A stretch of DNA of 64,000 nucleotides. Origin: Lysinibacillus xylanilyticus. Lineage in GTDB: Bacteria > Bacillota > Bacilli > Bacillales_A > Planococcaceae. Shown piece by piece: positions 8,392-23,663 of this stretch. Within the stretch, counting starts at the first letter, position 1, and the number at the start of each line of letters is the position of its first letter. A program made the position numbers and the translations under genes. Location: positions 248,001 through 312,000 of the forward strand of contig NZ_MDDN01000001.1 of NCBI RefSeq assembly GCF_001708185.1. Direction: 5' to 3'. The notes under the pieces are model-generated. The model was not told the origin of the DNA. It did not search any database and saw only the letters and a list, made by a program, of their open reading frames with translations.

Positions 8392-8406
8392 TAAACACAA
8401 CCCCTT

Positions 8407-9555
8407 TTACATTTTTTCAATAATAGTGGCATTCGCCATCCCCATACCTTCACATATAGCAAGTAAACCGTAGCGTAAATTTTCTCGCTCCATCCGATAC
8501 AGCATCGTTGTTAACAATTTTGTACCCGACGCTCCTAATGGATGCCCTAAAGCAATTGCTCCACCATCTGGATTTAATTTATTTGGATCTGCACCAGTTT
8601 CATGCAACCAAACAAGTGGTACAGGTGCAAAAGCTTCGTTCACTTCATACGTATCAATTTCTTCAATCGTAAGACCTGACCGTTCTAATGCTTGTCTAGT
8701 TGCCTCAATTGGACCCGTTAACATTAACATCGGATCTGAGCCAACGACCACTCTAGTAACAATTTTAGCAAGCGGTCGTATACCAAGCTCCTGTGCCTTT
8801 TCTAAAGACATAACAACTACAGCAGAGGCACCATCACTCATTTGACTTGCGTTTCCAGCTGTTATTACCCCATCTTCCTGGAAGACAGTTTTTAGTCCAT
8901 TTAATTTATCAACTGTCGTTTCTGCCCGAGGTCCCTCGTCAACAGAAAACGTGGTAACTGAGCCGTCTTCTTGTGTAACGTGAACAGGCAATATTTCCTT
9001 TTCAAAACGCCCCGCCTCAATAGCAGCTAATGCTCGTCTATGACTATTGTAAGCATAATTATTTAGCTGTTCCTTCGACAAGCTCCATTTTTCCGCTATT
9101 TTCTCGGCGGATAACCCTTGATGTATAATTGTATAGTTATCTTGCAAGCGTTTACCTGCATGAGAACCCTTCATGTTAGAACCCATTGGTACCCTCGTCA
9201 TGCTTTCAACCCCACCAGCTATGACAATGTCCATATCGCCTGCTAAAATGGCCTGTGCTGCAAAATGTACAGCCTGCTGACTTGAACCACATTGACGATC
9301 AATTGTCACACCTGGGACAGTCTCTGGAAAACCTGCCATTAACAATGCTGTACGGGCTATATTTGCTCCCTGCTCAGCTGTTTGCGTCACACAGCCAAAA
9401 ATTACATCCTCCACTTGTTCCTTTCCAATCCCAGCTCGATGGACAACCTCTTGCAGCACATCAGCAGCTAAATCGTCAGCACGAACATTGCTTAACGCCC
9501 CTTTACTCCTGCCAACTGCTGTACGAACAGCCGCTACGATTACCACTTCTCTCAT
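8407..9555 (-). CDS. Acetyl-CoA acetyltransferase (thiolase)
   Basis: Thiolase family, 382 residues, cleaving or condensing 3-ketoacyl-CoA with CoA. The acyl-accepting cysteine is in DRQCGSSQQAVHF. NEAFAPV and the histidine motif GHPLGASG are intact, and the C-terminal cysteine is in CEGMGMANATI, where the more usual CxGxG variant reads Cys-Gly/Glu-Gly-Gly. The frame is open further upstream, but the ATG at 9555 (MREVVIVAAVRT) has AAAGGGG at proper spacing. First gene of the trio thiolase-SDR-ligase. Confidence 0.92.
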   Translation of the reverse strand: MREVVIVAAVRTAVGRSKGALSNVRADDLAADVLQEVVHRAGIGKEQVEDVIFGCVTQTAEQGANIARTALLMAGFPETVPGVTIDRQCGSSQQAVHFAAQAILAGDMDIVIAGGVESMTRVPMGSNMKGSHAGKRLQDNYTIIHQGLSAEKIAEKWSLSKEQLNNYAYNSHRRALAAIEAGRFEKEILPVHVTQEDGSVTTFSVDEGPRAETTVDKLNGLKTVFQEDGVITAGNASQMSDGASAVVVMSLEKAQELGIRPLAKIVTRVVVGSDPMLMLTGPIEATRQALERSGLTIEEIDTYEVNEAFAPVPLVWLHETGADPNKLNPDGGAIALGHPLGASGTKLLTTMLYRMERENLRYGLLAICEGMGMANATIIEKM

Positions 9556-9637
9556 AATTAAAACCCCTTTGCTCCATTGATTCTCATTCCCTATCATCCA
9601 TCACGATAAAGTCTATTTGGGCGCGATGAAATATATA

Positions 9638-9653
9638 CTGATATAATTATCAG
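9638..9653. promoter_or_regulatory. Palindrome upstream of the thiolase, possible operator
   Basis: Perfect inverted repeat CTGATATAATTATCAG, lying 83 bp upstream of the thiolase ATG and just downstream of a TATAAT-like hexamer on the minus strand (9656-9661). The position fits a repressor site over the promoter. No regulator can be named: it does not match the B. subtilis FadR box as I know it. Confidence 0.35.
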
Positions 9654-9792
9654 AATATTATAGCATTTATTTTACATGAATAAGAAGATATTAACAATTT
9701 TAATAGACTAGCATGTTGCTATTTTCTAGTTAGTCGTCCATCCACCGCGTGTATATTAGCCGTTCATCTCATAAACCAGAGCATAAAAAAAA

Positions 9793-9822
9793 AAGCAATC
9801 TCAAAGTAAATTGAGATTGCTT
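9793..9822 (-). terminator. Original ndk terminator, now separated from ndk
   Basis: A perfect 12-bp stem AAGCAATCTCAA/TTGAGATTGCTT with a 6-nt loop, followed on the minus strand by ten T residues. It adjoins the left copy of the ndk 3' end, so it is the ancestral ndk terminator displaced by the 11.6-kb insertion. Confidence 0.85.
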
Positions 9823-9958
9823 AATCTATTTGCTAATTAAGCTAAATCTTCACCGAAGAATAAGCCAATTTCGCGCTCTGCAGAAGCAAGAGAGTCAGAA
9901 CCGTGGATGATGTTGTGAGAAACAGTTGTTGCATAGTCACCACGGATTGTACCTGGGT
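9820..9958. repeat. Left 139-bp direct repeat: remnant of ndk 3' end (attL-like)
   Basis: Identical over 139 bp to 21430-21568. It contains the last 40 or so codons of ndk, including the stop and 17 bp past it. Identity stops at ACCTGGGT. This is the signature of site-specific integration into the 3' end of a host gene, where the element supplies a replacement end for the right-hand copy. Confidence 0.93.
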
Positions 9959-10148
9959 AGCTACCAAGAAAAGAGACTTTAACTATTGTCTCTGAAATCA
10001 CTAACATCAAGAGTTCTGCGAGTAAAACGAAAAAAACTAAATTAGAACTAAGTTTTTTTACCTTCTTAACTCCAAACTATACACAATTTCAGCCATTTCA
10101 ACAAGTATTTCAACGATAACAAAAGAGCGATTATTCACATCTTTTTTT

Positions 10149-10226
10149 CTATTTATTTAATATTTTTTCTTTTTGCTTATTAAATTCTTCTTCCGTCAAT
10201 ATCCCAGCTTCTTTTAATCGAAAAGC
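10149..10226 (-). pseudogene. Remnant of a SHOCT-domain protein
   Basis: A minus-strand reading frame ends with RLKEAGILTEEEFNKQKEKI and a stop. That is the typical C-terminal SHOCT motif (short helix, GIxTxEEF). No start codon or upstream domain is visible: the frame is interrupted within about 10 codons. It lies in the 459-bp gap between the left repeat and the next gene, where nothing else is recognisable apart from a weak hairpin near 10040-10065. Confidence 0.55.
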
Positions 10227-10417
10227 TCCTTAAGCTCTTAAAGAGTGTTTTATTAAAATAGGAAGTAACACATCTTCCTATTGCACCTTTAGCTCCCACT
10301 CATCTCAAAATAAAAAACGAGATAAATCCTTAGTTTACCCCGCTTTGCTACTCTTATACTATTGCTCCCTTAACACTTGAGCTTGCTCTGTATGCTCTTT
10401 GGAACGCTTTTCTTACC

Positions 10418-11161
10418 TCATATTTCATGTATCTCACAATAAAGTCGTTCAGGAAGCTCATCCCAAAAACTCTGTAACGCTTCCTTATACTTAATGAAAT
10501 CTGAATCACTAACGTTCAATACTTGCTCATTTAGCACTGTTCTATAAACTTTTAATAAGTTATTCTCAGTTATTTCAGATTTAAAGAAATCAGGTCTCAG
10601 CTCTTCTAATTCTGTTGCAGAACCACCATCACCATGTTTAATAACATTGGCTAACAATCTCAATTCATTTATATCTGACCATCTCGTCATTTTCTCTAGG
10701 TCTTGTCCAAAATCTGCAAACTCTTCTTTAATAGCATTTATCCCACGTGTACAATAATTTTTAAAATCAATTTCTTGACCTTTCTCATTACATAGCGTTA
10801 CTCCTGAATGTGTAATTTCATCATATAAGAACTTCCTCACTTGTTGTTCCCAAAACTGATACATTGTAGAAATCCACATCAACTGACTATTATACTTAAC
10901 TAAAGAAACAGCTTCATAATATTCCAAGCCTTTTTCAAATGCAGAATCTGCAAAATCAGCTTCATCATGTCTATCAGGGTCAAAATACTGTCCTAACTCT
11001 TCATAATGACTTTGTGCCATCTCATTAGATTCTTCTTCCAAGTTATTAAAAACTAAAGCAACTTTATTAAAGTAAACATCGATGTAATAATCATAAGGTT
11101 TTTGAAATCTTTCACGCAACTTTTGATATAAGTACAACTGTGCTGTTGCCATCATCTCCAC
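10418..11161 (-). CDS. Hypothetical cargo protein, possible HEPN-like helical protein
   Basis: 247 residues, family not recognised. Acidic and predicted mostly helical, without signal peptide or membrane segment. A segment ELRLLANVIKHGDGGS near residue 170 resembles the N-x-x-KHG signature seen in some HEPN-type and abortive-infection proteins; this is inference only. The start could be GTG 11161 or the following ATGs at 11155/11152, all behind AGGTGGAG. It lies alone near the left end of the element, a common position for defence or fitness cargo. Confidence 0.7.
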   Translation of the reverse strand: MEMMATAQLYLYQKLRERFQKPYDYYIDVYFNKVALVFNNLEEESNEMAQSHYEELGQYFDPDRHDEADFADSAFEKGLEYYEAVSLVKYNSQLMWISTMYQFWEQQVRKFLYDEITHSGVTLCNEKGQEIDFKNYCTRGINAIKEEFADFGQDLEKMTRWSDINELRLLANVIKHGDGGSATELEELRPDFFKSEITENNLLKVYRTVLNEQVLNVSDSDFIKYKEALQSFWDELPERLYCEIHEI

Positions 11162-11279
11162 CTACTTTAACATAATTAAGAAGAGAGCCTATTTCAGCTC
11201 TCTCAGTCTTTATTCATTAGTGGCTCACCGCCAAAGTTAACTTATGGAGAGTTGACCCTAACTCAGAAGTTTCACTTGG

Positions 11280-11378
11280 CTAGCGTGTTGGATACGAGCG
11301 GTAATGCTCTCGAACATATTCTAAACGTCCCTTGCGGAAACGCTTATATGGTCTTACCTTTACAGCTTTATGTACCAT
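11280..11378 (-). CDS. 32-residue basic micro-protein
   Basis: A short ORF, MVHKAVKVRPYKRFRKGRLE then YVREHYRSYPTR, preceded by an excellent ribosome site AGGAGGTG with 6-nt spacing. Highly basic (about one third Arg/Lys/His). Short basic proteins with a VRPYKR-like N-terminus occur in Bacillus plasmids and phages, but the function is unknown to me. It stands apart from its neighbours, between the DUF2971 gene and the 247-residue gene. Confidence 0.6.
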   Translation of the reverse strand: MVHKAVKVRPYKRFRKGRLEYVREHYRSYPTR

Positions 11379-11520
11379 GCTAACACCTCCTAATTAGTTA
11401 AGGCGGTGAGTTGCTTTTATTTTACAATTTTATGGTAATGTAGTATATAATACTTTTTTGATATTGCATAGTAATATTAACCGTGTGTCGACAGCTCTGT
11501 ATAAAATAATGATTTTAAAG

Positions 11521-12309
11521 TTACCGAATAAGTAGTGAACTCTTTTGGATTGTGGCTTCAGGATTATACTTTTCAACTAAATCCTCAATTATTGTAATTT
11601 GAGCATATGACGTCTTAGGACCACAAAGTATCTCCATATCCTCAAAGGCTTCTCTAGCTATATGTAAATCTACATATGCTAAATTTTTTCGAACATATAT
11701 CCATTCGTGAACTAAATCCTTAATTTTATTTTCTAATTGAAAGCTCTCTAATTCTCTCATTGAAAACGGAAGTGAATGTATTCGATACCTTAATTCTTTT
11801 TGAAATTCCCATACTTTCCTTTTAAATTTCCCTATCCCACTTCTATTTACGGAAAAACTCAAATTATCGCCATTTTCTACCGAGTTTGTTGCTTGAGGAT
11901 ATAGTAGACTTCTATCGTTTGTGTATGTCACTTCTATAAGTTCTGCTTTATATGGCATAAATATTACATTGTTTTGATTTTGTAATTCTAATAATCCCTT
12001 AGAATATTCAATATCTTCCTTTTGAATATTTTCATCTTTCTCCTTAATTTCCGTATCGAATATATTCCGTTTCATACGAATCCTTACACCCGCCATATTA
12101 GGTGTATATAAGTTCCATAAAGGAATAGATTCTTCGCTTTCAGCAGTCCAACTACTTACGTATGTATATCTTCCAAACTTACCTATATCTGATGTTTCTC
12201 CTTCCTCTAAATCATCCATATTGGCTAAACTTGATAATCTAAACGTTCGGTTTTTTAAAATCAAGGCTAAGGATTCAAGACTTGTGTAATGATAAATATA
12301 ATCAGACAT
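11521..12309 (-). CDS. DUF2971 family protein
   Basis: 262 residues. The N-terminus DYIYHYTSLESLALILKNRTFRLSS and the following SWTAESEESIPLWNLY...GVRI block are the hallmarks of DUF2971, a family often found on mobile elements and in defence neighbourhoods but without a settled biochemical role. No transmembrane segment. The ATG at 12309 follows GGAGG. Base composition is clearly AT-richer than the flanking chromosome. The 470 bp on its promoter side up to the resolvase show no credible gene. Confidence 0.8.
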   Translation of the reverse strand: MSDYIYHYTSLESLALILKNRTFRLSSLANMDDLEEGETSDIGKFGRYTYVSSWTAESEESIPLWNLYTPNMAGVRIRMKRNIFDTEIKEKDENIQKEDIEYSKGLLELQNQNNVIFMPYKAELIEVTYTNDRSLLYPQATNSVENGDNLSFSVNRSGIGKFKRKVWEFQKELRYRIHSLPFSMRELESFQLENKIKDLVHEWIYVRKNLAYVDLHIAREAFEDMEILCGPKTSYAQITIIEDLVEKYNPEATIQKSSLLIR

Positions 12310-12780
12310 AATGCTACCTCCTCTAAAAAAATCAATTCACAATAATATGTTACATGATAATCCAATTTTTACATAATAAAAACATAGCCCATAACACCTC
12401 AAAGGTCTTGTTGCTCTTAGTCATTACAGTTATACCTTCCCTCGTGTCACTTCATTTTCCTTTTGGTGTGCGTGTAGTAGGTAGCCCCGATTCATCATTC
12501 GCCATCATTAAATTATCGGAAAATACCCCCCTCTATTCCCACACTCTGTAGCGTTCCAATCGTCCATCTTACACGCTTCTGACCATCACTGACCAATGTA
12601 TCAACTCGACCTCTAGAGAGAGAGCGAGATAGCCTGCAATCCCCCTCTAGCAAGCCATCTATCACTCTGTACTCGCACTCAAAATAAAACGATGATTTTA
12701 CGGCTTCACGATAGCAACAAACGAAGCGGGTTAAAATCATATAAATCAAGGGATAAATCCCGAAGGATACGTTTAGGTAA

Positions 12781-13350
12781 CTACTGTGATTCCTGTGCTT
12801 TGCGTTTCTTTGCTTCACGTTTTAAGGTACTCATGCTAATTCCTGTTGCTTCTTCAACCTGCGAGAATGAATGAGTTTCTTTCATTTTCATAGCATGGTC
12901 AAGCTGTGCCTTTGTGTATGTAGGCTTACGACCTTCACGATAGTTGGGGTTCTGCTTTGCTATTGCTTTACCTTCCTGTGTACGCTCAACAATCATGTCA
13001 CGCTCGAACTCTGCAAAAGCAAAGAAAACAGTACGAATTAGTTTTGAAGTTGGTCTGTTATCCATGATACCCATATTAAGGATATTCACTCTAACCCCCT
13101 TTTCTATTAGTCCTTTGACCAAATCACTTCCTTGTGAAGCTGAACGAGCAATACGGTCTAACTTAGTAACCATTAGTGTATCGCCTTCCTGTAGCACCTC
13201 TAAAAGCTCATTGAGTTGTGGTCTATCAGTTTTAGTACCTGTAAACTTCTCTTGATATATTTTTGTTGCTCCTTCTTTTTCTAATGCTTGAATCTGCGCT
13301 TCTAGGTCTTGTCCAACTGTTGATACACGAGCATATCCATATACTGTCAT
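12781..13350 (-). CDS. Serine recombinase, resolvase/invertase family
   Basis: Small serine recombinase of 189 residues that cuts and rejoins DNA through a serine. The N-terminal catalytic domain shows [16 protein letters not shown] with nucleophile Ser10, [13 protein letters not shown], and the RT...[13 protein letters not shown] helix. A C-terminal helix-turn-helix follows (about 150-185, [20 protein letters not shown]). The start is ATG 13350 with GAGGAA; upstream codons in frame lack support. Such enzymes resolve plasmid multimers, which fits the plasmid-like element. A candidate binding region lies just upstream. Confidence 0.92.
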
Positions 13351-13378
13351 TTCAGTTCCTCTTCTCACGTTCACTTGC

Positions 13379-13459
13379 GACACTTAATTATGACACCGTT
13401 TGATACCTTGATGTTACAGCATCGGACTTTCGGTGTCAATACTTAAAAAGTTACGACAC
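13379..13459. promoter_or_regulatory. Candidate resolvase site (res) upstream of the serine recombinase
   Basis: Four GACAC pentamers occur in 81 bp: direct at 13379, 13392 and 13455, and inverted (GTGTC) at 13433. GACACCG and CGGTGTC form an inverted pair. The arrangement between the resolvase and a divergent gene is where res sites usually lie. No exact match to a known res consensus was found. Confidence 0.4.
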
Positions 13460-13536
13460 CTAAAACGATATAAATTACAAATTACAAAACATCCATATTT
13501 GTATATAATTACTGTAATTAAAGGAGGCATCTATCA

Positions 13537-14148
13537 ATGAATCTCAAACATCAGCTATTTAAAATATTCTTTACATTCGAGGTAAAGGAAGCTCATTATC
13601 AACTAAGTTTTATTGGATTATCTTTTGTCATTCTAGGAATTATCCATTCCTTCGATATAGTAACATTAAGTCAAATGACTATAATCGGACTAACTATATC
13701 AGGTATTTTTTTTGTACTTGGTGACTTTTGTCAGCATTTCATAGACAATTATGCATACAACCCGAAAAAAGTTATAGCTTATAAGGATTGCACTCGCATC
13801 CAAAACAGATGGAAAGTTTGTAAATTCTTTTGTCTTTTAATAGCTATTTTGTCACTTATCATAGCACCATACATTAAATTAAATGTATCTGTAGACAAAC
13901 TCGAAGTTTTAAGCACCTCTTTGTCTTTAGTTGCTATTGGATTAACTATATTAAATGTTAGCTTATACAATAATAGAAAACTTGAATCACTTTATGAAGA
14001 CTTAGCAGATTCTTACGCAGAATCACTAAAACTAAAAGCAGAACTAATTGATTTAAAGGCAGATACATCTTTAGAAGAAAATGACTCTAAAAACATATTG
14101 GAGAGTGACAATAATACAAGTCCACCACATGAACGAGGAAATATCTGA
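13537..14148 (+). CDS. Four-helix membrane protein with C-terminal coiled coil
   Basis: 203 residues, family not recognised. Four hydrophobic segments are visible: about 24-41 (LSFIGLSFVILGIIHSF), 48-64, 93-113 (FFCLLIAILSLIIA) and 130-146 (LSLVAIGLTILNV). A soluble C-terminal helix rich in E, K and L follows (about 150-190). AAAGGAGG precedes the ATG and a TATAAT-like hexamer lies about 30 bp upstream. It is divergent from the resolvase and 617 bp upstream of the RelA/SpoT gene on the same strand. Four-helix proteins with a coiled tail occur as membrane effectors in nucleotide-signalling defence systems, but nothing here proves that role. Confidence 0.7.
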   Translation: MNLKHQLFKIFFTFEVKEAHYQLSFIGLSFVILGIIHSFDIVTLSQMTIIGLTISGIFFVLGDFCQHFIDNYAYNPKKVIAYKDCTRIQNRWKVCKFFCLLIAILSLIIAPYIKLNVSVDKLEVLSTSLSLVAIGLTILNVSLYNNRKLESLYEDLADSYAESLKLKAELIDLKADTSLEENDSKNILESDNNTSPPHERGNI

Positions 14149-14765
14149 ACAACTTTTAACTAATTTTACAATTCTTACAAGTGCTTTCACACGCATCGAG
14201 AATCGAAAATATCTATAGTCGTTCATCTCGATTGCATTGAGAGCTGTTTACCGAATAAACACCGACCCTTATTTGCTAAACACCTCATAAGCTCTTCGCA
14301 ACTTCCCAATTACATATCAGCTAAAGGCTCACTATGCTCCATAACAAATTGCCTTTAGTTGCCTCTCCTCATCATTTAGATTCTTTTGTAGCTTCGTAAT
14401 GGTCATTGAAATCGTTACCAATAGAGTTTGTACCCAAACGGTATCATACTCCTCTCGATACTCGCTATCGTAAAGACCCTAGTTCTTCCATGAAATTATC
14501 TATATACCATCACATGCTTTAGATGATGTTACCTTTACCCTTATGTACCGCTTCGATATGGCTTACTATTCAATTTGAGCATTATATAGAAATTTTCCCA
14601 TGAAATGCTGCGCTTTATTGTTGAATAGATTTCTAAGTTACTTAGAGGCTCTCGTGTCGGTTGGAAGTAACAGTCTCATGATTCTGTTACATATGCACCC
14701 TCTTGAAATTCCCTCTATAATGAATTAAAGTTAAATATATCTAAATTCAAAGGAGGCAATTCCTT
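14149..14765. other. 617-bp gap with a decayed ORF fragment
   Basis: No intact gene. On the minus strand (14332-14480) a frame of about 48 codons without a start reads like protein (SEYREEYDTVWVQTLL, then LQKNLNDEERQLKAIC) and ends in TAG. A preceding short frame (MEELGSL) is in another register, as if frameshifted. The remainder, including the promoter region of the RelA/SpoT gene, shows nothing recognisable. Confidence 0.4.
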
Positions 14766-15785
14766 TTGGTTGCAATTGCACTTGATAAAAATAACGACAT
14801 TAAAGCAATAGAAGATGAATATTCACAGCGACTCAACATTTACAAGCAGCTTGCAGATGAAGGAAAACATACATTACAACACGCTCTACTAGAAACAAAC
14901 ATTAAAATACATACCATTCTATCAAGAGTTAAAGAAATAGAATCTTTCTTAGGAAAAGTAAAGAGAAAAGAACTTGAGAAGCCTTTTGAAGAAATAAATG
15001 ACATTGTAGGTATAAGAATTGTTTGTCTATTTTTATCAGATATAGAAAAAATCGAAAAAGTTATAGCTGATAATTTTGAAGTTATTTCAATAGACAATAA
15101 AATCAGCAATATTGAAAATTCGAATATGTTCGGTTACATGTCTGCACATTATATTGTCAAATTCAAGGAAGAGTTCACAGGTCCTAGATATGATTCCATC
15201 AAGAATATGATTTTCGAAATTCAAGTTAGAACAATTTCAATGGATGCTTGGGCAAATATCTCTCATTTCTTAGAGTATAAGAATGAGAATGACATTCCTC
15301 TAGAACTTAAGCGTGACTTTAATGCCCTCAGTGGACTATTCTACGTCGCAGATACTCATTTCGAAATGTTCTATAAACAAAGTCAGACAAACAAACAAAT
15401 TGTTCTAGAAAAAGTAGATGAAATAATTCACAAAAAAGTAGAACACACAATTGAACAACAGCTTAACTTAGATAGTTTAACTGCGTATTTACATACCAAG
15501 TTCCCTGATAGACGAAATGCTAAAAGTGAAGATATTTCTCAATTAATAACAGAGTTGATTGAATGTGACTATAAAACAGTAGAAAGTGTTGATAGAATAG
15601 TCGAAAACAACTTTGAAACTTTTTTAAAATACGAAGAATTGTATCACCCTAATTTCCAATCTTTTTATGCTGATGTTGGTGTCATAAGAATATTGTTCTC
15701 TCTAGCAGATGAAAATTATAGGAAATATTCAAATATGGTTATTAAAAATTATGAAGATTTTGTAAATAAAACAAACAACTCATAA
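14766..15785 (+). CDS. RelA/SpoT-domain nucleotide synthetase with C-terminal extension
   Basis: 339 residues. The synthetase domain of the small alarmone synthetase class occupies about 10-190. It shows ILSRVKEIESFLGK (donor-binding basic patch, 51-64), DIVGIRI (79-85), FGYMSAHY (122-129), and EIQVRTISMDAWA (151-163). The usual Glu of the WAxxEH motif is Ser here (NISHFLEYK), so activity or substrate may differ. No hydrolase (HD) domain is present. Residues 200-339 form an unassigned helical extension. The start is TTG behind a perfect AAAGGAGG. Known relatives make (p)ppGpp or act as toxins (toxSAS) that modify tRNA or make ppApp. A mobile-element copy without a hydrolase suggests a stress or anti-phage role, by inference. 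Confidence 0.85.
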   Translation: MVAIALDKNNDIKAIEDEYSQRLNIYKQLADEGKHTLQHALLETNIKIHTILSRVKEIESFLGKVKRKELEKPFEEINDIVGIRIVCLFLSDIEKIEKVIADNFEVISIDNKISNIENSNMFGYMSAHYIVKFKEEFTGPRYDSIKNMIFEIQVRTISMDAWANISHFLEYKNENDIPLELKRDFNALSGLFYVADTHFEMFYKQSQTNKQIVLEKVDEIIHKKVEHTIEQQLNLDSLTAYLHTKFPDRRNAKSEDISQLITELIECDYKTVESVDRIVENNFETFLKYEELYHPNFQSFYADVGVIRILFSLADENYRKYSNMVIKNYEDFVNKTNNS

Positions 15786-15869
15786 CATTTTAAGGACTTT
15801 TAGCTTTTTTTGCTGTTAAGTCCTTTTATATTTATGCTTATTTTGAACTTAACCTGATTAATACAGGCT

Positions 15870-16493
15870 CTATGCTTCTTTAAAGATTTTAATAAGCCTT
15901 GTACCATTGTTCTCATAAGATAACTCAAAATTGAATCTGTTGAGCTTTGCAACATGCTTGATTTCAGCTAACAGCTTGTGTTTGCTTTTGCGCTTCTTAT
16001 ACTCGTTAATTTTATTAATATCACGCTGAATAGCTTTGAATGACCGCATGAGCATAGCAGAACAACCTACCATTTCATCTAGGTCAACAATGAATAGCAA
16101 GGCTTCCAAACGACTACTAATGATGGCATGAGCTTGTTCATCATTGGAAGCAAATGAACTGAACATGATTTCATCAGTGGCGAAGGATAAACGAGCTTCT
16201 AAGCGATTAGCAAAGGCATAATCAGATTCACCATTACTTGAATTGCTACTGCTTGATTCCTCTCGCTCGTTCCTATCATAGTTAGCTAGTAGTTTTGCAC
16301 CTGCTCTATTAGAATATTTCAACGAGCCTGTATAATCTGTGACTCTATGCTCTAAGTCTGCGAAACGTGTTCCCTTGACATTCAAATGATGTTTGATAAT
16401 CACACTGTTATCTTTATTGCTAAGGAAATCAAAGGCTATATGAGCGTTTTTGACGCACCATTTGTCACAATATAGATTAATGATTTCTAGCAA
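15870..16493 (-). CDS. Hypothetical protein, possibly truncated replication-type protein
   Basis: 207 residues from a TTG start, family not firmly recognised. A segment LLANYDRNERE...YAFANRLEARLSF (about 75-103) resembles the Y-(D/N)-K...R-(F/L)-E-x-R-L core of some plasmid Rep proteins. The frame stays open 23 codons upstream of the TTG to a TGA at 16563-16565, and those codons (ITFHRTFYEADNVGYLLEII) read naturally into the protein but have no good start or ribosome site. N-terminal truncation or an upstream frameshift is therefore possible. Last gene of a minus-strand run below the 254-residue HNH-like gene. The 149-bp gap upstream has no gene. Confidence 0.5.
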   Translation of the reverse strand: MLEIINLYCDKWCVKNAHIAFDFLSNKDNSVIIKHHLNVKGTRFADLEHRVTDYTGSLKYSNRAGAKLLANYDRNEREESSSSNSSNGESDYAFANRLEARLSFATDEIMFSSFASNDEQAHAIISSRLEALLFIVDLDEMVGCSAMLMRSFKAIQRDINKINEYKKRKSKHKLLAEIKHVAKLNRFNFELSYENNGTRLIKIFKEA

Positions 16494-16642
16494 GTAACCA
16501 ACATTATCAGCTTCATAGAACGTTCTGTGAAAGGTTATTCTTGCTGTGTAAGATATTTCCCTTCAACTCGAACGAGATAGCACCTCTCAAAAGAAAGGCG
16601 CTAAAATAATCTAAGAGTTATACTTTTTTCTTGTTACGACTT

Positions 16643-17407
16643 TTACCGCAACTCAATATAGTTTCCCTCTAGAATCTTTGCTATCTGCTTCTTTTCACGT
16701 TCTGCTCGTACTTCGGGTCTCTCGTAAGTGATACCATAAGCTTCACATTGAGCTTTGTATTCTTCTTCACTGTTGGTTGGCTCTAAGGTTTTGACAGGCA
16801 TAGATAGAACTGTTCGATTAGTTGTAGTTACATTACCTTGCTCATCAACCACAAATTCACTATATGGCTTTTTGGTCATATTCTTTACTTTGGTATAACC
16901 TATACCTAAGAATCTCTCTAAAGCTCTATTACTCTCAAACATTTGGAAGCCATTAGTTCCTTGTTCCGCAACCATTAGTGCAATGGGCTTCTTCTTGTCA
17001 TTGTCTGAAAGCTCACGATTTTCTTTTTGAGACTTCATGCGAATGTTGCCACGTTCATAATGTTTTGAAGAGTCAATTCTATCAATCGTTGGCTTTGCGT
17101 CTTCTTTGGCTTTTTCATCTTTTATCTGTTGCATTACCTTTGTTTGCTCTTGCCATTTTTCCCATTCATCAGGTAATTCTGTGATGAAATAGATTGCCAT
17201 ATCTAACGGTGAATCAAATCTAAATTCAATACCTTTATAAGCAGGTTTCTGCTTTGGTGTAGGTCTTGTGTCTTCTTCTCTCTTTAGGCATGAATTAGTA
17301 AGAATACAAGTAGCTTCCTCCTGACTTTCACTAACGTGACCTAATTCTAATAACTCTAGGTAGAGCTTCTCAGCTTGAATTTTTCTTGCGCTTTTGTTTT
17401 TTGTCAT
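16643..17407 (-). CDS. HNH-like phage/plasmid protein
   Basis: 254 residues. The central block PTIDRIDSSKHYERGNIRMK...ENREL (about 105-135) is the second half of an HNH-type endonuclease fold common in phage proteins (DRIDxxxxYxxxNIRWxxxxxN). A long charged linker precedes it, and a basic C-terminal region with EVRAEREKKQIAKILEG ends the protein. I cannot place the zinc cysteines and catalytic His with confidence, so nuclease activity is uncertain. The ATG at 17407 follows GGAG. It lies 21 bp after the stop of the 59-residue gene, so they form one transcript. Confidence 0.65.
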   Translation of the reverse strand: MTKNKSARKIQAEKLYLELLELGHVSESQEEATCILTNSCLKREEDTRPTPKQKPAYKGIEFRFDSPLDMAIYFITELPDEWEKWQEQTKVMQQIKDEKAKEDAKPTIDRIDSSKHYERGNIRMKSQKENRELSDNDKKKPIALMVAEQGTNGFQMFESNRALERFLGIGYTKVKNMTKKPYSEFVVDEQGNVTTTNRTVLSMPVKTLEPTNSEEEYKAQCEAYGITYERPEVRAEREKKQIAKILEGNYIELR

Positions 17408-17428
17408 TGTAATTTCTCCATTCTCTTG

Positions 17429-17608
17429 TTAGATAGTTGTAGTTTCAATTTCAGCATGTTCTACAAACAGGCTAGTTTCCTCCTGTCTGTCACTAATCAA
17501 CGTGATTGCCTCAATCTGTTGGGAATACATTGTTTGAAATAGCTGTAACTCTGTTTCTTTCATTAACAAATCAATTGTTAATGTTACAATTTGCTTTTTC
17601 TCTGTCAT
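17429..17608 (-). CDS. 59-residue protein, unknown
   Basis: A short intact ORF starting MTEKKQIVTLTIDLLMKE and ending HAEIETTTI, with ribosome site GGAGG at 7-nt spacing and a stop 21 bp before the HNH-like gene. Acidic, probably a helix-rich small adaptor; no family recognised. The strong ribosome site and tight spacing argue that it is translated as the first gene of a short operon with the HNH-like protein. Confidence 0.6.
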   Translation of the reverse strand: MTEKKQIVTLTIDLLMKETELQLFQTMYSQQIEAITLISDRQEETSLFVEHAEIETTTI

Positions 17609-17786
17609 TTTTCATCCTCCAATAAGAATATTTGTTTGTGTGTGTGCTTACCTTGATAACCATAATATTCAAAATAATCTTCTATTACTATTCTATTAAT
17701 AAAAAACTTTCGTGGTATAATAGGAGATAGGAGGAGAAGGTAAAAGTAACATAATAATATGTAATTGATTAAATGAGACTACGAAA

Positions 17787-17812
17787 AAGCACACCACCCT
17801 AATGATGTGCTT
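17787..17812 (-). terminator. Terminator-like hairpin downstream of rep
   Basis: AAGCACA/TGTGCTT stem followed on the minus strand by TTTTT. It lies 260 bp past the replication gene, beyond the repeat region. A TATAAT-like hexamer near 17710 on the plus strand could be a separate promoter. Confidence 0.5.
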
Positions 17813-17926
17813 TGCAGATTCTTCGAATCGATTTCAGTATAACTTCACATATACTATTACTAGCATACCTTTACTACTCCATATATACTGTCCCACTCCC
17901 TAGCTGTATAGCTGTTAAGGGCTAGA

Positions 17927-18078
17927 AGTAATAATACATATAAGTGGAATCATCATGTCTATGATTCAACGATTTGAGGTTGCATCACATTCAGATAATC
18001 ATACACATACTACACTACCCACCATACTGCATTTAAAGGCAGGTAGTAATAATACATATAAATAGAATCATCATGTCT
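17927..18078. repeat. Pair of 34-bp direct repeats, iteron-like
   Basis: Copies at 17927-17960 and 18045-18078 match at 32 of 34 positions (core AGTAATAATACATATAA, then GAATCATCATGTCT), spaced 118 bp. The second copy overlaps the last codons of the replication gene. Direct repeats beside rep suggest initiator-binding iterons or the origin. The surrounding 17609-18070 gap has no gene. Confidence 0.6.
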
Positions 18079-19360
18079 CATTCTTGAGTTGTGATTTCAT
18101 TCTACTAATTGTTCGTGGATGCACACTTAGCAGTTCTGCAAGGTCATTGTTCTTCAAATGTGGTTGTTCCAATATTAACCTAGACATAGCATTAAGACGG
18201 TCATTAGCAAGTTTTTTTCTATCAGTTTGATACTCCTCTTTAGGACGTACACCCTTCTCACGTCTCTTAGCTTCCTTACGCTTCTGCTCTCGTTCCTTTT
18301 TGACTTGCTTACTAATAATTGTTGCAAGCTGTCTCTGCTGTTCTAACGTGATATTCAAATCAGCAATCAGTGTAGCATTAGTCATTTTATATGCCACTTG
18401 GTTCACTGAATTTATTGCTCCTCTTATTCTCGTATCAGGCAATGGTTTATAGAACCTTGCGTTGATGCGTTGCAAATTTCGTTCAATCACCTTATCATCC
18501 ATCCCTACTGCTTTACCGCAAATAGCATAGTTGAACAATAAAGTCTTGCGGTTCACTACAGGTTGAATTTCAAGAAGCTTCTCAAAATCTTTCAAACGTG
18601 CTTGATTCAAGCTATATTCTGTCAATAAATGACTAACGGCTTTTTTGTCTCCCTCTTTCTTCTTAGTCTTTGGAGCAACGGCTTCCTCATTTATCACTTT
18701 CGGTTTACTAAGAAGCTCAGGTAAAAGAAACTCCTTCATTTCTCCAATTGAGTAACGAGCATCTCTTAAATACTCTGCTCGTATAATACCACCTGTTTTT
18801 GACGAAATGCTTCCTGCTAAACGAAAAATCTGCGTGACCGATTTCGCTTTACTATCAGAATGAAGGTGTTGGAATCGTTTGTATATTTCGTTCTGCATAT
18901 GCCCCCACAACTTGAGATAATTGTCATACTTCATATACTCCATTAACCAAATAAGCTGTAGACCACGCCCACTGTGAATGATAATATTTGGTGACAATAT
19001 GACTTCATTAGCTATCATTTCATCAATTTGATAACGTGCCTCAATCAAATCAATTTTCGGTTTCGCTTTATAGAAATCTAAATCTGTATAGAGTGCATTA
19101 AGTCTTACACAGTCTTCTGAGACTCTCTTATAGCTCTTAAAAGTGTTTAAGGAAAAATACACATCCTTCCCTAACCATTCACTCTGAGGAATCTCATAAT
19201 AGATTGCTTTACCTATTCTACTCACCATCTTAGGTCGTTCTTCTCTAAGTTGGAATAGTTGGGCAAATCTCTCATTATCTCCATGTACAAATTGAAGTAA
19301 ATCAATAGCAGATATTACATGGGGGTTTGTGTCAAAACAATTGTGGGTAAAGTGATACAT
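18071..19360 (-). CDS. Plasmid-type replication protein with primase-polymerase-like motifs
   Basis: 429 residues. The N-terminal half carries a pattern of archaeo-eukaryotic primase (PrimPol) domains: acidic LYTDLDFYK (91-98), SGRGLQLIWLM (130-140, the sGrGh/H motif region), and then HSDSKAKSVTQIFRLAGS (167-183). A middle helical region (260-330) and a long basic KEREQKRKEAKRREK stretch follow. The C-terminus is a helix-turn-helix (about 400-425, NNDLAELLSVHPRTISRMKS). Together this suggests a plasmid replication initiator/primase. It is expressed from its own promoter through a 230-nt leader with a terminator hairpin, and is followed by iteron-like repeats. The family assignment is inferred from motifs only. 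Confidence 0.72.
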   Translation of the reverse strand: MYHFTHNCFDTNPHVISAIDLLQFVHGDNERFAQLFQLREERPKMVSRIGKAIYYEIPQSEWLGKDVYFSLNTFKSYKRVSEDCVRLNALYTDLDFYKAKPKIDLIEARYQIDEMIANEVILSPNIIIHSGRGLQLIWLMEYMKYDNYLKLWGHMQNEIYKRFQHLHSDSKAKSVTQIFRLAGSISSKTGGIIRAEYLRDARYSIGEMKEFLLPELLSKPKVINEEAVAPKTKKKEGDKKAVSHLLTEYSLNQARLKDFEKLLEIQPVVNRKTLLFNYAICGKAVGMDDKVIERNLQRINARFYKPLPDTRIRGAINSVNQVAYKMTNATLIADLNITLEQQRQLATIISKQVKKEREQKRKEAKRREKGVRPKEEYQTDRKKLANDRLNAMSRLILEQPHLKNNDLAELLSVHPRTISRMKSQLKNET

Positions 19361-19409
19361 TATAATTTCTTCCTTTTCCTAATTAGTTTATTAGGTACTC
19401 GGAGCCAAC

Positions 19410-19477
19410 AAAAAAGGTAGACAACACTAATCAGACCTTCTTATCTCTAAGAAAAGTCCAATTTAGTATTGTCTACC
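19410..19477 (-). terminator. Attenuator hairpin in the leader of the replication gene
   Basis: GGTAGACAACACTAA (19416-19430) pairs with TTAGTATTGTCTACC (19463-19477), 14 of 15 positions, enclosing an inner hairpin TTCTTA-TCTC-TAAGAA. On the minus strand it is followed directly by TTTTTT (19415-19410). It lies between the rep promoter and the rep start (19360), so it would stop transcription before rep unless prevented. Confidence 0.75.
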
Positions 19478-19595
19478 ACTGCATGTTAGTAGAATGTTAT
19501 TGGTTTCAAATAATGCCTTTAAGGCTCAGTTAAAGTTTAGATTTCATTGTTAATATAAAGTTTCATAAAATGGCTTCAAGTGCCTTAATGCAGTA

Positions 19596-19624
19596 TTATA
19601 CAAGAATAATAACTTTTTGACAAC
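19596..19624 (-). promoter_or_regulatory. Sigma-A promoter of the replication gene
   Basis: Minus strand TTGTCA (19624-19619), 17-bp spacer, TATAAT (19601-19596). The start would be near 19589, giving a leader of about 230 nt that contains the attenuator hairpin. Confidence 0.7.
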
Positions 19625-20293
19625 TCTTTCTAATTATCTAAAACACGAAGCTAGTGTTGAGGACAACGGCTTGGTGCAATAATGACTGCCTATGTTTCAG
19701 AAACTAATTAAATAGAATCTAAAAAATAGACAGCCATTGCCACATGAATCCTTCATTTGAGGTATCCGTATATGTATGCCCTTGCTTAAATGCGCTCTCT
19801 CGAACAATACATCTACTAATCTACTTCTGCCCCCGATAGTTCTTGTAATCCTTATATTCACCTTCTGCAAATATCGTAAATGCTTATTCTACTGTTATGA
19901 GAAACTCGGCAACAATTACAATGTGTGATGTATCCTGTGTAGCCGTAGCCACTCAGACCTTCCACTCCTAGCCGTTAATGGTCGCTAACACCATTCACAC
20001 CCAAAGCGAAACAAGGAACGCTTATAGAGGGTGCTAGACGTTTGTGTGCGATGGGAACGTCATAACCTGTCAAGTTTAGTTGCAATTGGTGTTACTAGGT
20101 TTCCACCAACGAGCCAACATGACCTCATGCTACCTAAAAAAGACAATAGAAAACTAGACCTTTGCATTTCCACTTTTTTTGAAGTAGAATGAAGGCATGT
20201 TAAACGCTCATATTTAGTTGTATTTGTCGTATGGCTAAAAGCGTTGGAGGGTAGCATTGCGAGTGCTAACCCTCTATTTTATTGCTTACTTCT
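19625..20293. other. 669-bp gap between rep promoter and integrase
   Basis: No credible ORF. One inverted repeat, GAGGGTAGCA/TGCTAACCCTC (20247-20274), followed by T-rich sequence on the plus strand, lies just beyond the integrase stop and may be a terminator. Nothing else recognisable. Confidence 0.4.
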
Positions 20294-21330
20294 CTATAAG
20301 AACTCACGTAAATTTCGTGCCACGTTATTTACATTTAATCCCAAATATTTGGATGTTGTTGACAAATCCGAGTGGGCTAATGCATGAGATACTAAATTTA
20401 TATCTGCACCTCGCTTCACCAAATTTTGAGCGTATAATCTTCGAATCGAATGAGGATTAACATTCTTTAAATTCCACTTTTTACTGTATACCCATAAATT
20501 TTTTGCAATTAAATTTGAAGGTGAAACTGTATTTGAAATTGGTACGCCAATGTTTGAAAGAAAAATATAATCATTCTTTTCTCTATGTTCCTTCCTGACT
20601 CCATCGTTTATTGAAATCAACTCCCTTAATAAAGTACACATTTCATCATCTAAAGGAAGAATCAATGGTCTATGCGCCTTCATTATTTCTCCCTGTAATT
20701 TCAAGAGCATATTATCAAAATCAATATTTTGCTCTCTCAACAAACCCAATGTTTTAATTCGGATACCTGTTTTATATAAAAGTAAAATCGCTATGCTATC
20801 ACGTAATCCCGAATACGTTGATTTATCTAAAAGTGATAATAAGAGTGTCAGTTCTCTCTCCGTAGTAGCTTCTTTAACGCTTGTATTTACTTTTATTTTG
20901 ATGTTTTTCCAAAACATCGATTCATACCAGCCATTATCGTGACACTTGCTTAAAACGGCTTTAATTTGCTTTAAACGACCATGCAAAGACGTGTCCTTCA
21001 CATTTTCAAAACTTGATAAATATTGATAAATTTTTTCATTGTTGATTTCGTAGAGATATTCAACTTTAGTACCTCAACAAAACGTTTAAAATTATAATTA
21101 TAACTATCAATTGTCCTTGGTCTTAATCCATTTAGTCGCCATTGTTGATTTAAAATTTTTAATGCGTGTTTAATTGTTATATTTCTGTTGTCCAATTCAT
21201 CAAAAGTATCAATTTTAACTATTGAGTTATTGATTTTTTTCACCATTTCTTTCTTTGGTTCTTTTTCGGCTTTGATAGTCAATAAGCTTAAATCAATGTT
21301 TGCGTTAACTTTATTGAATGATTTTGACAA
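20294..21330 (-). pseudogene. int: Tyrosine integrase split by a frameshift
   Basis: Site-specific recombinase for the element. The 5' part (21330-20998) encodes an N-terminal region with the SAM-like core-binding domain, and the 3' part (21001-20294) the catalytic domain. The catalytic part has Arg81 (TGIRIKTL), Lys108, HSIRR (184-188), His210 (ALAHSDL) and Tyr219 (TSKYL) all present. Near 21055-21063 the reading frame changes: shifting by -1 restores a continuous protein (YLYEINNEKI...SSFENV) into the GTG-start second ORF. The likely ancestor is one protein of about 345 residues. Alternative: two proteins with coupled translation (ATGTGA overlap), which is less likely because the restored linker is typical integrase sequence. 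It lies just inside the right repeat, same strand as ndk. Confidence 0.85.
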
Positions 21331-21342
21331 ACAAAAAACCCC

Positions 21343-21360
21343 CTAACATTTTTTTGTTAG
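21343..21360 (-). terminator. Weak hairpin between ndk and int
   Basis: CTAACA/TGTTAG stem with a T6 loop, followed on the minus strand by GGGG and TTTTTT. It is in the element downstream of the reconstituted ndk and 13 bp before the int start. It may terminate ndk transcripts in place of the displaced original terminator, or allow partial read-through into int. Confidence 0.45.
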
Positions 21361-21429
21361 AAGGTAAAAGTCACATCGGAAAATAGATGATTTTTTTATT
21401 TAGTTCTATCCGTAGTTTTTTTCGCTACT

Positions 21430-21568
21430 CTTAATCTATTTGCTAATTAAGCTAAATCTTCACCGAAGAATAAGCCAATTTCGCGCTCTGCAGAAGCAAG
21501 AGAGTCAGAACCGTGGATGATGTTGTGAGAAACAGTTGTTGCATAGTCACCACGGATTGTACCTGGGT
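21430..21568. repeat. Right 139-bp direct repeat inside ndk (attR-like)
   Basis: Identical to 9820-9958. It forms the 3' end of the intact ndk (codons from about 99 to the stop, plus 17 bp). No substitution has accumulated between the copies, which suggests either recent integration or selection on the coding copy. Confidence 0.93.
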
Positions 21569-21863
21569 TAGATTCTTCAGGTTTAGTTGCTCCCATCATT
21601 GTACGAGCAAGCTTGATTACATTTTCGCCTTCCCATACCATAGCGAATACAGGACCAGAAGTGATGAAATCAACTAATTCACCAAAGAATGGACGTTCAG
21701 CATGCTCAGCATAGTGCTTTTCTGCTAATTCTTTAGGAATTACCATTAATTTAGCACCTTTCATTACAAAACCGCGGCGTTCAAAACGATCTACGATATC
21801 TCCTACTACTTGACGTTCTACGCCATCCGGCTTAACCATTAAAAAAGTTTGTTCGATTGCCAT
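21447..21863 (-). CDS. ndk: Nucleoside diphosphate kinase
   Basis: Transfers gamma-phosphate between nucleoside tri- and diphosphates. 138 residues, beginning [18 protein letters not shown]; the active-site histidine is in the conserved [16 protein letters not shown] motif. The protein ends at FFGEDLA, about 10 residues shorter than the B. subtilis enzyme, but the displaced left copy ends identically, so this is the native end. The 3' third is contributed by the inserted element. First gene upstream is hepT, as in B. subtilis. Confidence 0.97.
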
Positions 21864-21949
21864 GTTTAAAACACTCCTTAAATTCGTCTAACAGGTTTTA
21901 CACCTACCGATAAATATTAACAAAAAATGAGCATTTGTACAACAAAAAG

Positions 21950-22924
21950 CTAGAATTTACGCTTGCCCATAAATAAGGCGACATCACGCAATTTTTTCTT
22001 AACAGGATGTTTTGGTAATGCATCTATTTCCTGTAATGCCTTTTTCAAATATTTATCACTCATTTTATTAGCTTGTTCAATCGCGTCAGATTTACGCACA
22101 TACCGCAACATTTTTTGACGTTCTGTCTCGGTCAATGTCCCTGCAAATACTTTTACTAAATAAGGTTGCATCTCTGGATCATCTTTTAATAAAAGAATCG
22201 GTAATGTAATATTGCCCTGCAATAAATCGCTGCCTGCTGGCTTTCCTAATTCTTTATCAGTCGCCATAATATCTAAAACATCATCGATAATTTGGAAGCT
22301 CATGCCAACAAAGTAGCCGAAGCGTTTCAAATGTCTCACTGTTTTGGCATCAACACCTGCCGCTACAGCACCAAGCTCACAACTAGAAGAAATCAGCAAT
22401 GCCGTTTTTCGTTTGATTCTTCTAAAATAATCCTTTAAACCTTGATCTAATCTAAACTTATCTTCGATTTGAATGACTTCACCGTTACAAATTTCCACCA
22501 TTGTACGTGCTAAAATTTGATGAACTAATGGGTCTTCAAGCTTTGTAATATATTCAAGTGCACGTGCAAAAATAAAATCGCCCGTGTACATCGCTACTCT
22601 ATTATTCCATTGTGATTTGACAGTCGGGCGTCCTCTTCGCATATTGGAATCATCAATTACATCATCATGCACTAGTGACGCCATATGAATAAGCTCTACA
22701 GGCACAGCTACATCTTTCATCTTATCGATATCATATTCGCCAAATTTCGCGCCAAGCAACACAAAAATTGGTCGTATCCGTTTACCACCAGCTTGCAATA
22801 AATGGAGAGAAGCATCATTGATCAAATCTGAAGAAGAGTTCACCGCTTTTTCTAACTCTTTTTCAATAATATCGATATCTGATTTCAAATCGGAATAGAG
22901 TAGTTTCAACTTCATCTTTTCCAC
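21950..22924 (-). CDS. hepT: Heptaprenyl diphosphate synthase, catalytic component II
   Basis: Trans-prenyltransferase making the menaquinone side chain with HepS. 324 residues. First aspartate-rich motif LVHDDVIDDSNMRRGRPT near residue 88, second motif FQIIDDVLDIMATDKELGKP near 213. The GTG at 22924 sits 9 nt behind GGAAGG and is favoured over the ATG three codons later. It lies 19 bp after menG. Confidence 0.95.
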   Translation of the reverse strand: MEKMKLKLLYSDLKSDIDIIEKELEKAVNSSSDLINDASLHLLQAGGKRIRPIFVLLGAKFGEYDIDKMKDVAVPVELIHMASLVHDDVIDDSNMRRGRPTVKSQWNNRVAMYTGDFIFARALEYITKLEDPLVHQILARTMVEICNGEVIQIEDKFRLDQGLKDYFRRIKRKTALLISSSCELGAVAAGVDAKTVRHLKRFGYFVGMSFQIIDDVLDIMATDKELGKPAGSDLLQGNITLPILLLKDDPEMQPYLVKVFAGTLTETERQKMLRYVRKSDAIEQANKMSDKYLKKALQEIDALPKHPVKKKLRDVALFMGKRKF

Positions 22925-22943
22925 GTGTGAAAACCTTCCCCCA

Positions 22944-23648: not shown

Positions 23649-23663
23649 TTTGAAAAACCTCTC

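Follow-up and report, generated by a model that had tools for sequence, protein, structure and literature searches.

Genes and junctions of the ndk insert

The window, i.e., the whole 64,000-nucleotide stretch of Lysinibacillus xylanilyticus DNA analysed here, carries an 11.6-kb insert in the chromosome, bounded by ndk and a thiolase gene. A 139-nt repeat flanks the insert in two 100% identical copies (9820-9958 and 21430-21568, minus strand, spacing 11,610). The 4.76-Mb assembly contains no further match to the repeat and thus gives no sign of a free circle. The repeat takes in the last 122 nt of the ndk coding sequence, stop codon included, and 17 nt of 3' UTR. The ndk-proximal copy is the int-side attachment junction and lies in a full-length ndk (21447-21863, minus strand, 138 aa), the 3' part of which is element-restored, as seen from the open frame and the comparison with relatives. 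The distal copy continues into the ancestral 3' UTR of ndk and its terminator; this terminator (9793-9822, minus strand) is left at the far end of the element, and a similar hairpin follows ndk directly in many empty genomes. The repeat, the stranded terminator and the restored Ndk had all been proposed in the original prediction, and all three are borne out. A tRNA or tmRNA target in the window was ruled out, ARAGORN finding none in 64 kb.

Next to the restored ndk lies a tyrosine integrase gene in two pieces on the minus strand, an N-terminal piece of 110 aa where the frame is broken (20998-21330) and a catalytic piece of 235 aa (20294-21001; PF00589, E 8.7e-27). The replication and resolution genes of the original prediction are present in the interior; the integrase is not intact, which corrects that prediction. 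In five Lysinibacillus relatives (G002, G012, G016, G018, and G022) the integrase at ndk is a single open frame of 344-345 aa. Since its integrase is frameshifted, the window element is probably immobile, judging from the sequence.

Downstream of int, and beyond a non-coding region described below, a replication protein of 429 aa (18071-19360, minus strand) matches phrog_9432 and has plasmid Rep relatives of about 30% identity. It is followed on the same strand by an HNH-endonuclease-like protein (16643-17407; weak PHROG matches, best E 1.5e-4) and a protein without a match in profile or family searches (15870-16493). A RelA/SpoT-type protein (14766-15785; PF04607, PADLOC candidate PDC-S33) and a membrane protein (13537-14148; weak sub-threshold match to 8xMP) are on the plus strand, and a serine resolvase/invertase (12781-13383), a DUF2971 protein (11521-12309; PADLOC candidate PDC-S31) and a phage-type protein (10418-11161; phrog_19541) are on the minus strand. 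Among the 10 scanned frames (both parts of the integrase included), no relaxase or conjugation gene and no packaging or structural phage gene was recognised; the remaining frames are all shorter than 110 aa. The element had no megablast match as a known plasmid, and its RelA/SpoT gene was not confirmed in any viral contig.

Occupied and empty ndk sites

The ndk site is a recurrent insertion hotspot. An element end like that of the window follows ndk in 14 of 32 Lysinibacillus genomes (one of these diverged), and 10 of the 32 have a further ndk 3' match. Neither of the two observations named beforehand as refuting the original prediction turned up. Of the 18 genomes without an element end, none has a second ndk match, and 15 show an ndk-thiolase gap of 218-620 bp, i.e., an empty site. 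The interior genes are not native to the relatives as far as the two genes searched go: Rep was matched in two of the 32 genomes (its own and G017), and RelA/SpoT in three, the same two plus G020 (36% identity). Gene cargo varies from element to element at ndk. In the wider family, two matches to the C-terminal 41 aa of ndk occur in 9 of 261 genomes, and in all nine an ndk-clade integrase, whole or broken, adjoins ndk. An element in another genus (G042) has an integrase of 55-56% identity and a second copy 32.6 kb away, and its element/ndk boundary at the distal copy falls at the same ndk codon as in the nine Lysinibacillus copies that reach it. In 13 of 16 relatives examined, the target end occurred twice. 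This hotspot, the integrase frameshift and the conserved non-coding region beside int were all absent from the original prediction.

The ndk integrases of Lysinibacillus and of one other genus form one clade (support 100/100) within a family that also targets tmRNA, tRNA-Arg, and the biotin carboxylase gene (accC). Pattern matching gave no target label for eight integrases in the tree, of which ARAGORN placed six (L080, L091, and L121 at tRNA-Arg; L104, L114, and L123 at tmRNA); L090 and L108 stay unlabelled. Matches of the G018 integrase to phage and plasmid records were all below 60% identity. A single target switch within one integrase family makes the change of target open to direct study.

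The two repeat copies of the window are identical and so give no exact position for the exchange. In other genomes, the paired ndk 3' copies are often more alike than a purely element-borne origin of one of them would lead one to expect, a pattern that points to gene conversion or within-species reuse. The reciprocal allele pattern of G011 would put the exchange at ndk positions 363-375, not at the left edge.

The int leader hairpin and the structured region after int

Besides the ancestral terminator, the element supplies a second terminator-like hairpin in the int leader (21338-21365, minus strand), recognised by covariation, pattern search, and arm comparison. Its 3' arm is the int Shine-Dalgarno sequence, a T-run precedes the TTG start, and its 5' arm is the putative int-side arm-type site; the putative distal arm site, TTAAGAAGGTA (10059-10069, minus strand), is an inverted near-copy of this 5' arm and lies some 110 nt away from the repeat. 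Covariation in the hairpin amounts to 37 doubly changed cells versus 9.6 expected, a value reached in 0 of 500 shuffles, and the leader pattern gave 38 matches in 32 genomes versus 5 with the reversed pattern; 9 of 55 leaders fall outside the hairpin pattern, some through small variants. Over 22 elements, 192 of 220 letters match between paired arms, versus 149.4 +/- 3.0 (maximum 159) in shuffles. Please note that this comparison omits, of 13 distal-copy relatives, L111, where the leader was not matched, and L119, which has none, and that the arm alignment at ndk omits the truncated distal copy of G024. Element by element, at least 5% of shuffles equal the observed match in 7 of the 22 (worst L105, 116 of 200), and the first test, on the window only, rated the arms as weak, with a score of 36 against 25.7 +/- 4.8 in shuffles (maximum 46). 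From its sequence, the hairpin looks like a terminator, a Shine-Dalgarno lock, and an attachment arm in one.

The non-coding region after int is large and structured (19644-20212, minus strand, 569 nt, subtype A; first-model match 20121-20212), and its conserved structure is backed by compensatory change. Among 20 relatives, 91 pairs were scored, 49 of them doubly compensated, with 227 compensated cells versus 68 in shuffles; the fold comprises 16 predicted helices. A 65-aa frame after int was rejected as a gene, no long frame being kept across relatives; stop-free stretches on the int strand there reach 37-91 codons at most. The model seed omits the window and G018, of six aligned sequences (extra 3' insert); folded alone, the 5' domains of these two prefer another long hairpin, and within the domain one inner helix is paired in 61% only. 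With a covariance model, 33 copies were detected, spread over 27 of the 261 family genomes, and at all 30 loci examined the region lies on the int strand, downstream of a tyrosine recombinase, at 49-161 nt in 25 loci and 245-742 nt in five. Most pairs of these recombinases are less than 30% identical. That the region is alike while the adjoining recombinases are mostly so far apart suggests that selection acts on the RNA itself.

The region is not present in every ndk element: among seven with a long stretch of sequence available, the model matches G000, G018, and G011, aligns with G016 in part only (73%), and has no match in G002, G012, and G022. Rfam 15 holds no family for the region at gathering score, nor did E-value-mode scans return anything at or above gathering; the int-alpA motif was not listed in these scans. 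No match was found among phage records, and two weak plasmid matches (Paenibacillus, Brevibacillus; E 6e-3), with no annotated integrase within 2.5 kb, were left uncounted.

Nature of the element and of its two modules

Direct repeats at both junctions, empty sites in relatives and a tyrosine integrase (PF00589, broken in the window) at one end together describe an integrative element, and we are confident in reading it as a non-conjugative genomic island, site-specific at the ndk 3' end via its tyrosine integrase and carrying a leader hairpin and an RNA-like module. The ndk 3'-end copy of a circular form would recombine with the chromosomal ndk 3' end, presumably catalysed by the element's own integrase, and ndk is rebuilt because the element brings its own copy of the gene's 3' end, located on the integrase side. 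That the repeat is instead a segmental duplication or a product of homologous recombination, with no dedicated integrase target, could account for the near identity of copies within a genome, as expected from gene conversion; it is highly improbable, however: the shared junctions go most of the way to refuting it, with the distal boundary recurring at one ndk codon, and in addition a one-clade integrase, whole or broken, adjoins ndk and the arms are conserved. That the insert is the relic of a prophage or of a phage satellite and not a plasmid-like island would be in keeping with sister ndk elements that carry phage genes, i.e., terminase, portal, and major head protein in G016 (L. sphaericus 2362) and terminase in G042, and with IMG/VR contigs of 14.3 and 32.1 kb, the compared parts of which are 100% identical to the G016 and G042 elements. 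The window element itself lacks any recognised structural or packaging gene and the relatives of its Rep are more numerous and closer among plasmids than phages, and we regard such an origin as unlikely.

As to the hairpin, it would take over from the displaced terminator in ending ndk transcription, and probably also limits integrase synthesis and serves as an arm-type site, because its 3' arm is the Shine-Dalgarno sequence and its 5' arm an inverted copy of the far-end site. A single piece of DNA would thus replace the terminator of the entered gene and keep the integrase low. It is rather unlikely that the hairpin is a terminator for the target gene only, with no part in int expression or arm binding; in 8 of the 13 ndk genomes that show the exact pattern the hairpin is kept despite a broken or missing int, and no integrase was recognised at 5 of 10 accC sites with the leader, but this persistence is partly ascertainment, since the sites were found via the leader, and the 5' arm tends to vary together with its far-end counterpart between target classes. 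The structured region may be a new, apparently undescribed class of RNA; most likely it is transcribed together with int or following it, and acts in the life cycle of the element. We give about even chances to the fuller proposal, i.e., that this region of roughly 570-600 nt is an undescribed large structured RNA class that works together with the tyrosine recombinases of mobile elements and moves among unrelated integrases and elements because it aids integration, excision, integrase control, or transfer. Action as DNA (an origin, an attachment accessory, or a single-stranded fold) would suit its constant nearness to an integrase, and pairing rules alone cannot separate RNA from folded single-stranded DNA; yet the downstream position on the int strand at all 30 loci fits a 3' UTR or following transcript, and the region has pairing ends and many compensated helices including G-U variants, making a DNA role distinctly unlikely.

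OLE is a large ornate bacterial RNA, and the int-alpA RNA motif is a short motif beside integrase genes in other bacteria. By that description, int-alpA resembles our region in adjoining integrases and differs in being short and in its hosts. GOLLD and ROOL are large ornate RNAs found in phage genomes and said to lie often near tRNAs (PMC7567579, in its accessible text); with these and OLE (~600-800 nt) the region shares large size and an ornate fold, but it lies by tyrosine recombinases rather than near tRNAs and has no Rfam 15 gathering-score match. Its fixed place by tyrosine recombinases makes an RNA role testable, unlike that of most large orphan RNAs.

Tyrosine-integrase islands and prophages catalogued with TIGER/Islander rebuild the 3' end of tRNA, tmRNA, or protein genes, and 43.4% of islands lie in protein-coding sequence (PMC12424338). 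The ndk element resembles these islands in its gene 3'-end direct repeat, the integrase on the rebuilt-gene side and the empty sites in relatives. The main text of that study does not name ndk, nor does the word occur in the main text of PMC13239906 or in the accessible text of PMC12884075, and PMC4841242, in its accessible part, mentions ndk only as missing from a pathway. In keeping with the original prediction that ndk is an unusual target, it was not found as one in the literature searches made. According to the accessible text of PMC13239906, IME8 of Lysinibacillus sphaericus is likewise a site-specific island with tyrosine recombinases in the same genus, but it targets yolD, not ndk, and needs two integrases and Hp3. 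The ndk target is a new case of a known gene-end-rebuilding insertion, and ndk joins the list of genes that serve as rebuilt landing sites.

The ndk element and its insertion site

The identical 139-bp repeat of the ndk 3' end proposed to flank the element was borne out: the two copies (9820-9958 and 21430-21568 of the window) are 100% identical, and no third copy was matched across the 4.76-Mb assembly. The repeat consists of the final 122 nt of ndk, which include the stop codon, followed by 17 nt of 3' UTR. As the original prediction held, a full-length Ndk is restored, i.e., ndk is complete at 21447-21863 (minus strand), and the ancestral ndk terminator is found on the far side of the element (9822-9793, minus strand); a hairpin with a T-run carried by the element itself lies in the leader of int, the tyrosine integrase gene (21365-21338, minus strand). 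The predicted genes for integration, replication, resolution and cargo were all found between the copies: an integrase, a replication protein (Rep), an HNH-like protein, a RelA/SpoT-type enzyme, a membrane protein, a serine resolvase, a DUF2971 protein and two proteins of unknown function. However, the integrase is split into two frames, disrupted near codon 91; it is intact in five Lysinibacillus relatives. Unless a related integrase moves it in trans, the window element is probably immobile.

Two direct repeats of 46 nt (17915-17960 and 18033-18078, 87% identical) lie where rep ends and beyond it; they may be origin iterons, and the stretch holding them has a relative in the element of another Lysinibacillus genome, G017. 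The membrane protein (13537-14148) and, after it, the RelA/SpoT-type enzyme (14766-15785) are on one strand, opposite to the remaining genes, and look like a toxin or defence pair; by eye, no membrane-protein partner was seen among the listed neighbouring frames of the G017 RelA/SpoT homologue.

All 32 genus genomes have ndk. Reading the sequence 3' of it, we found the same element end in 14 (G000, the window's own, and G002, G007, G008, G011, G012, G013, G014, G016, G018, G022, G024, G028 and G030, that of G011 being diverged). Duplications of the ndk 3' end, which were suggested as a check in relatives, were indeed found: a further 3' match is present in 10/32 genus genomes, the window's own counted, and two C-terminus matches in 9 of the 261 family genomes, all nine carrying the ndk integrase, whole or broken; the C-terminus search misses G002 (site split between contigs) and G024 (distal copy truncated). 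The ndk-thiolase distance is 218-620 bp in 15 of the 18 genus genomes without the element end and 1.7-1.8 kb in two (G005 and G009), the count leaving aside G017, whose thiolase lies outside the stretch compared. Occupied gaps, leaving out the split site of G002, span 1.7-17.3 kb except in G022, where the thiolase start is ~49.5 kb from ndk, with two elements in tandem (L045-L046, L072), the second having a broken integrase and a junction of its own. G007 and G008, two species, hold 1.4-kb remnants at ndk (L043 and L044) flanked by both repeats and retaining of int the start alone; they are 99.4% identical across 1,401 nt and may represent a recent move by a mini-element that lacks an integrase.

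Targets of the integrase family and exchange of cargo

Integrase matches at E 1e-40 or better occur in 73/261 family genomes. Reading around 41 integrase genes, those at the ndk sites of Lysinibacillus excluded, we found as neighbouring targets ndk (in G042, which belongs to another genus and has the Lysinibacillus target), tmRNA, tRNA-Arg(TCT), a single tRNA-Ala and an accC-like biotin carboxylase gene; two of the integrases have no assigned target. In the integrase tree (47 rows), the seven ndk rows form one clade and the four accC rows another (support 100/100 for each), the two being joined at 91/91, a join to which a long-branch warning applies. Of 16 relatives checked, 13 have a second copy of the target end within 20 kb; none was found at that distance in L102, L114 and L120. 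At tRNA and tmRNA genes the second copy can be as short as 29-37 nt. At accC-like targets (L109 and L126, G016) the terminal residues of the rebuilt gene differ from the stranded ancestral end, so that the gene now ends in the tail of the element instead of that of the host. Near its tmRNA gene, the window's own genome holds another element with an integrase of this family (L098, contig C20).

When open frames of at least 60 aa were clustered in the 10 genomes with element sequence complete or nearly so, the integrase cluster was present in nine and absent from the G024 remnant; each of the other clusters inside the elements joins at most two genomes. Cargo includes a Septu-like pair (PADLOC PDC-M62) in G002, a SIR2 protein, a helicase and primase-like proteins in G022, and phage terminase, portal and head proteins in G016. 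The examined parts of two IMG/VR contigs (9,035 nt of a 14.3-kb contig and 6,044 nt of a 32.1-kb contig) match the G016 and G042 elements, respectively, at 100% identity. Identity to the G017 element, which sits at a biotin carboxylase gene with a different integrase, is 86% for the window Rep block and 76% for part of the RelA/SpoT gene: modules are swapped among elements that have different integrases. One accC element and an ndk element of G022 have in common a second, short tyrosine recombinase (193 aa; L149, 8424-9005).

The leader hairpin and putative arm sites

Of 55 leaders, 46 have a match to a hairpin directly 5' of the start of int. Across 34 distinct segments, 95.3% of cells pair vs 85.8 in shuffles and 37 cells are changed on both sides vs 9.6, values that none of 500 shuffles reach. 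In the 32 genus genomes the leader pattern occurs 38 times, vs five for the reversed control; of 30 matches examined, a target gene precedes 26 (12 ndk, 10 accC, three tmRNA, one tRNA-Arg) and four have no assigned target. Over 30 stretches (633 kb), we counted 305 open frames with a Shine-Dalgarno-like start, of which 10 have a T-run immediately after it; the whole Shine-Dalgarno is paired in six of these 10, and all six are integrases. Near the distal repeat lies an inverted counterpart of the hairpin 5' arm, at 108-112 nt in ndk and accC elements; pooled over 22 elements it agrees at 192/220 letters vs 149.4 +/- 3.0 in mononucleotide shuffles, and taken singly, at least 5% of shuffles do as well in 7/22.

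From the sequences, we propose that the integrase would join the element circle to ndk inside the common 3' end, leaving ndk rebuilt, and that the leader hairpin would terminate ndk transcripts and keep int low; the inverted arms are putative binding sites for the integrase or its helper.

An RNA-like region downstream of recombinase genes

Most of 19641-20290, in the int-Rep gap, is conserved in elements with different targets when compared against all loci examined. A covariance model was built from four diverged sequences of the ~87-nt 5' domain that have a like fold; searched without integrase information, it gave 33 matches in 27/261 family genomes. All 30 loci examined have a recombinase gene upstream, on the strand of the RNA-like region, 49-161 nt away in 25 and 245-742 nt in five (L195, L201, L204, L206 and L210), where small frames or a broken int intervene. 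PF00589 is present in 10/10 divergent upstream recombinases scanned. Three viral contigs found by pattern (L214-L216) have the same arrangement and seem to be repeats of genome loci. Of the pairs formed by the 30 upstream proteins of at least 230 aa (27 genome loci and the three viral contigs), 78% are <30% identical. The conserved stretch is ~570-600 nt, of subtype A in 20 loci (58-96% identical, median 74%), including the window (569 nt; 19644-20212, minus strand), and of subtype B in 10; L191 matches it in part. No long open frame exists on the int strand, the longest stop-free stretch being 37-91 codons.

The putative RNA may tune the integrase or excision, or it may act as do other large orphan RNAs linked to phages; we favour tuning of the integrase or excision because of the linkage to recombinases.

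Rfam 15 gave no match at gathering score in 8000-24000 and none at E 1 in 20000-20300; at E 10, 19450-20300 had nine matches, all below gathering and eight eukaryotic by name. Beyond the family, and under strict filters, RNA model R1 found only the window's own genome among 393 genomes of the class, and model R2 (E 0.01) the window's own genome and three weak matches (33-37 bits). No paper on ndk islands or on this RNA was found in the literature searched, which covered few subscription journals; please note that the RNA is undescribed with respect to Rfam 15 and that literature only.

The subtype A consensus structure (RNAalifold), in which the two ends pair together, has -55.9 kcal/mol and 91 pairs, 49 with compensatory double changes. 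Scored on the alignment it was derived from, 95.4% of 1801 cells pair vs 82.4 in shuffles, 227 cells are doubly changed vs 68.2 +/- 7.2, and covariation is 0.412 vs 0.172 (0/500 shuffles as high; <=0.081 with partners slid). Because structure and test used the same alignment, column shuffles were added, with a mean of -3.9 and a lowest value of -6.3 (n=15); for subtype B the consensus fold is -77.0, vs a mean of -1.1 and a lowest value of -6.5 (n=20). In the 5' domain, doubly changed cells number 28 over 32 aligned matches vs 8.8 in shuffles (0/500), and one inner helix is paired in just 61% of cells. On their own, the 5' domains of the window and G018 sequences, both of which bear an extra 3' insert, favour a different hairpin. 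The whole window copy of the RNA, folded alone, has a z of -3.1, with 0/100 shuffles as low.
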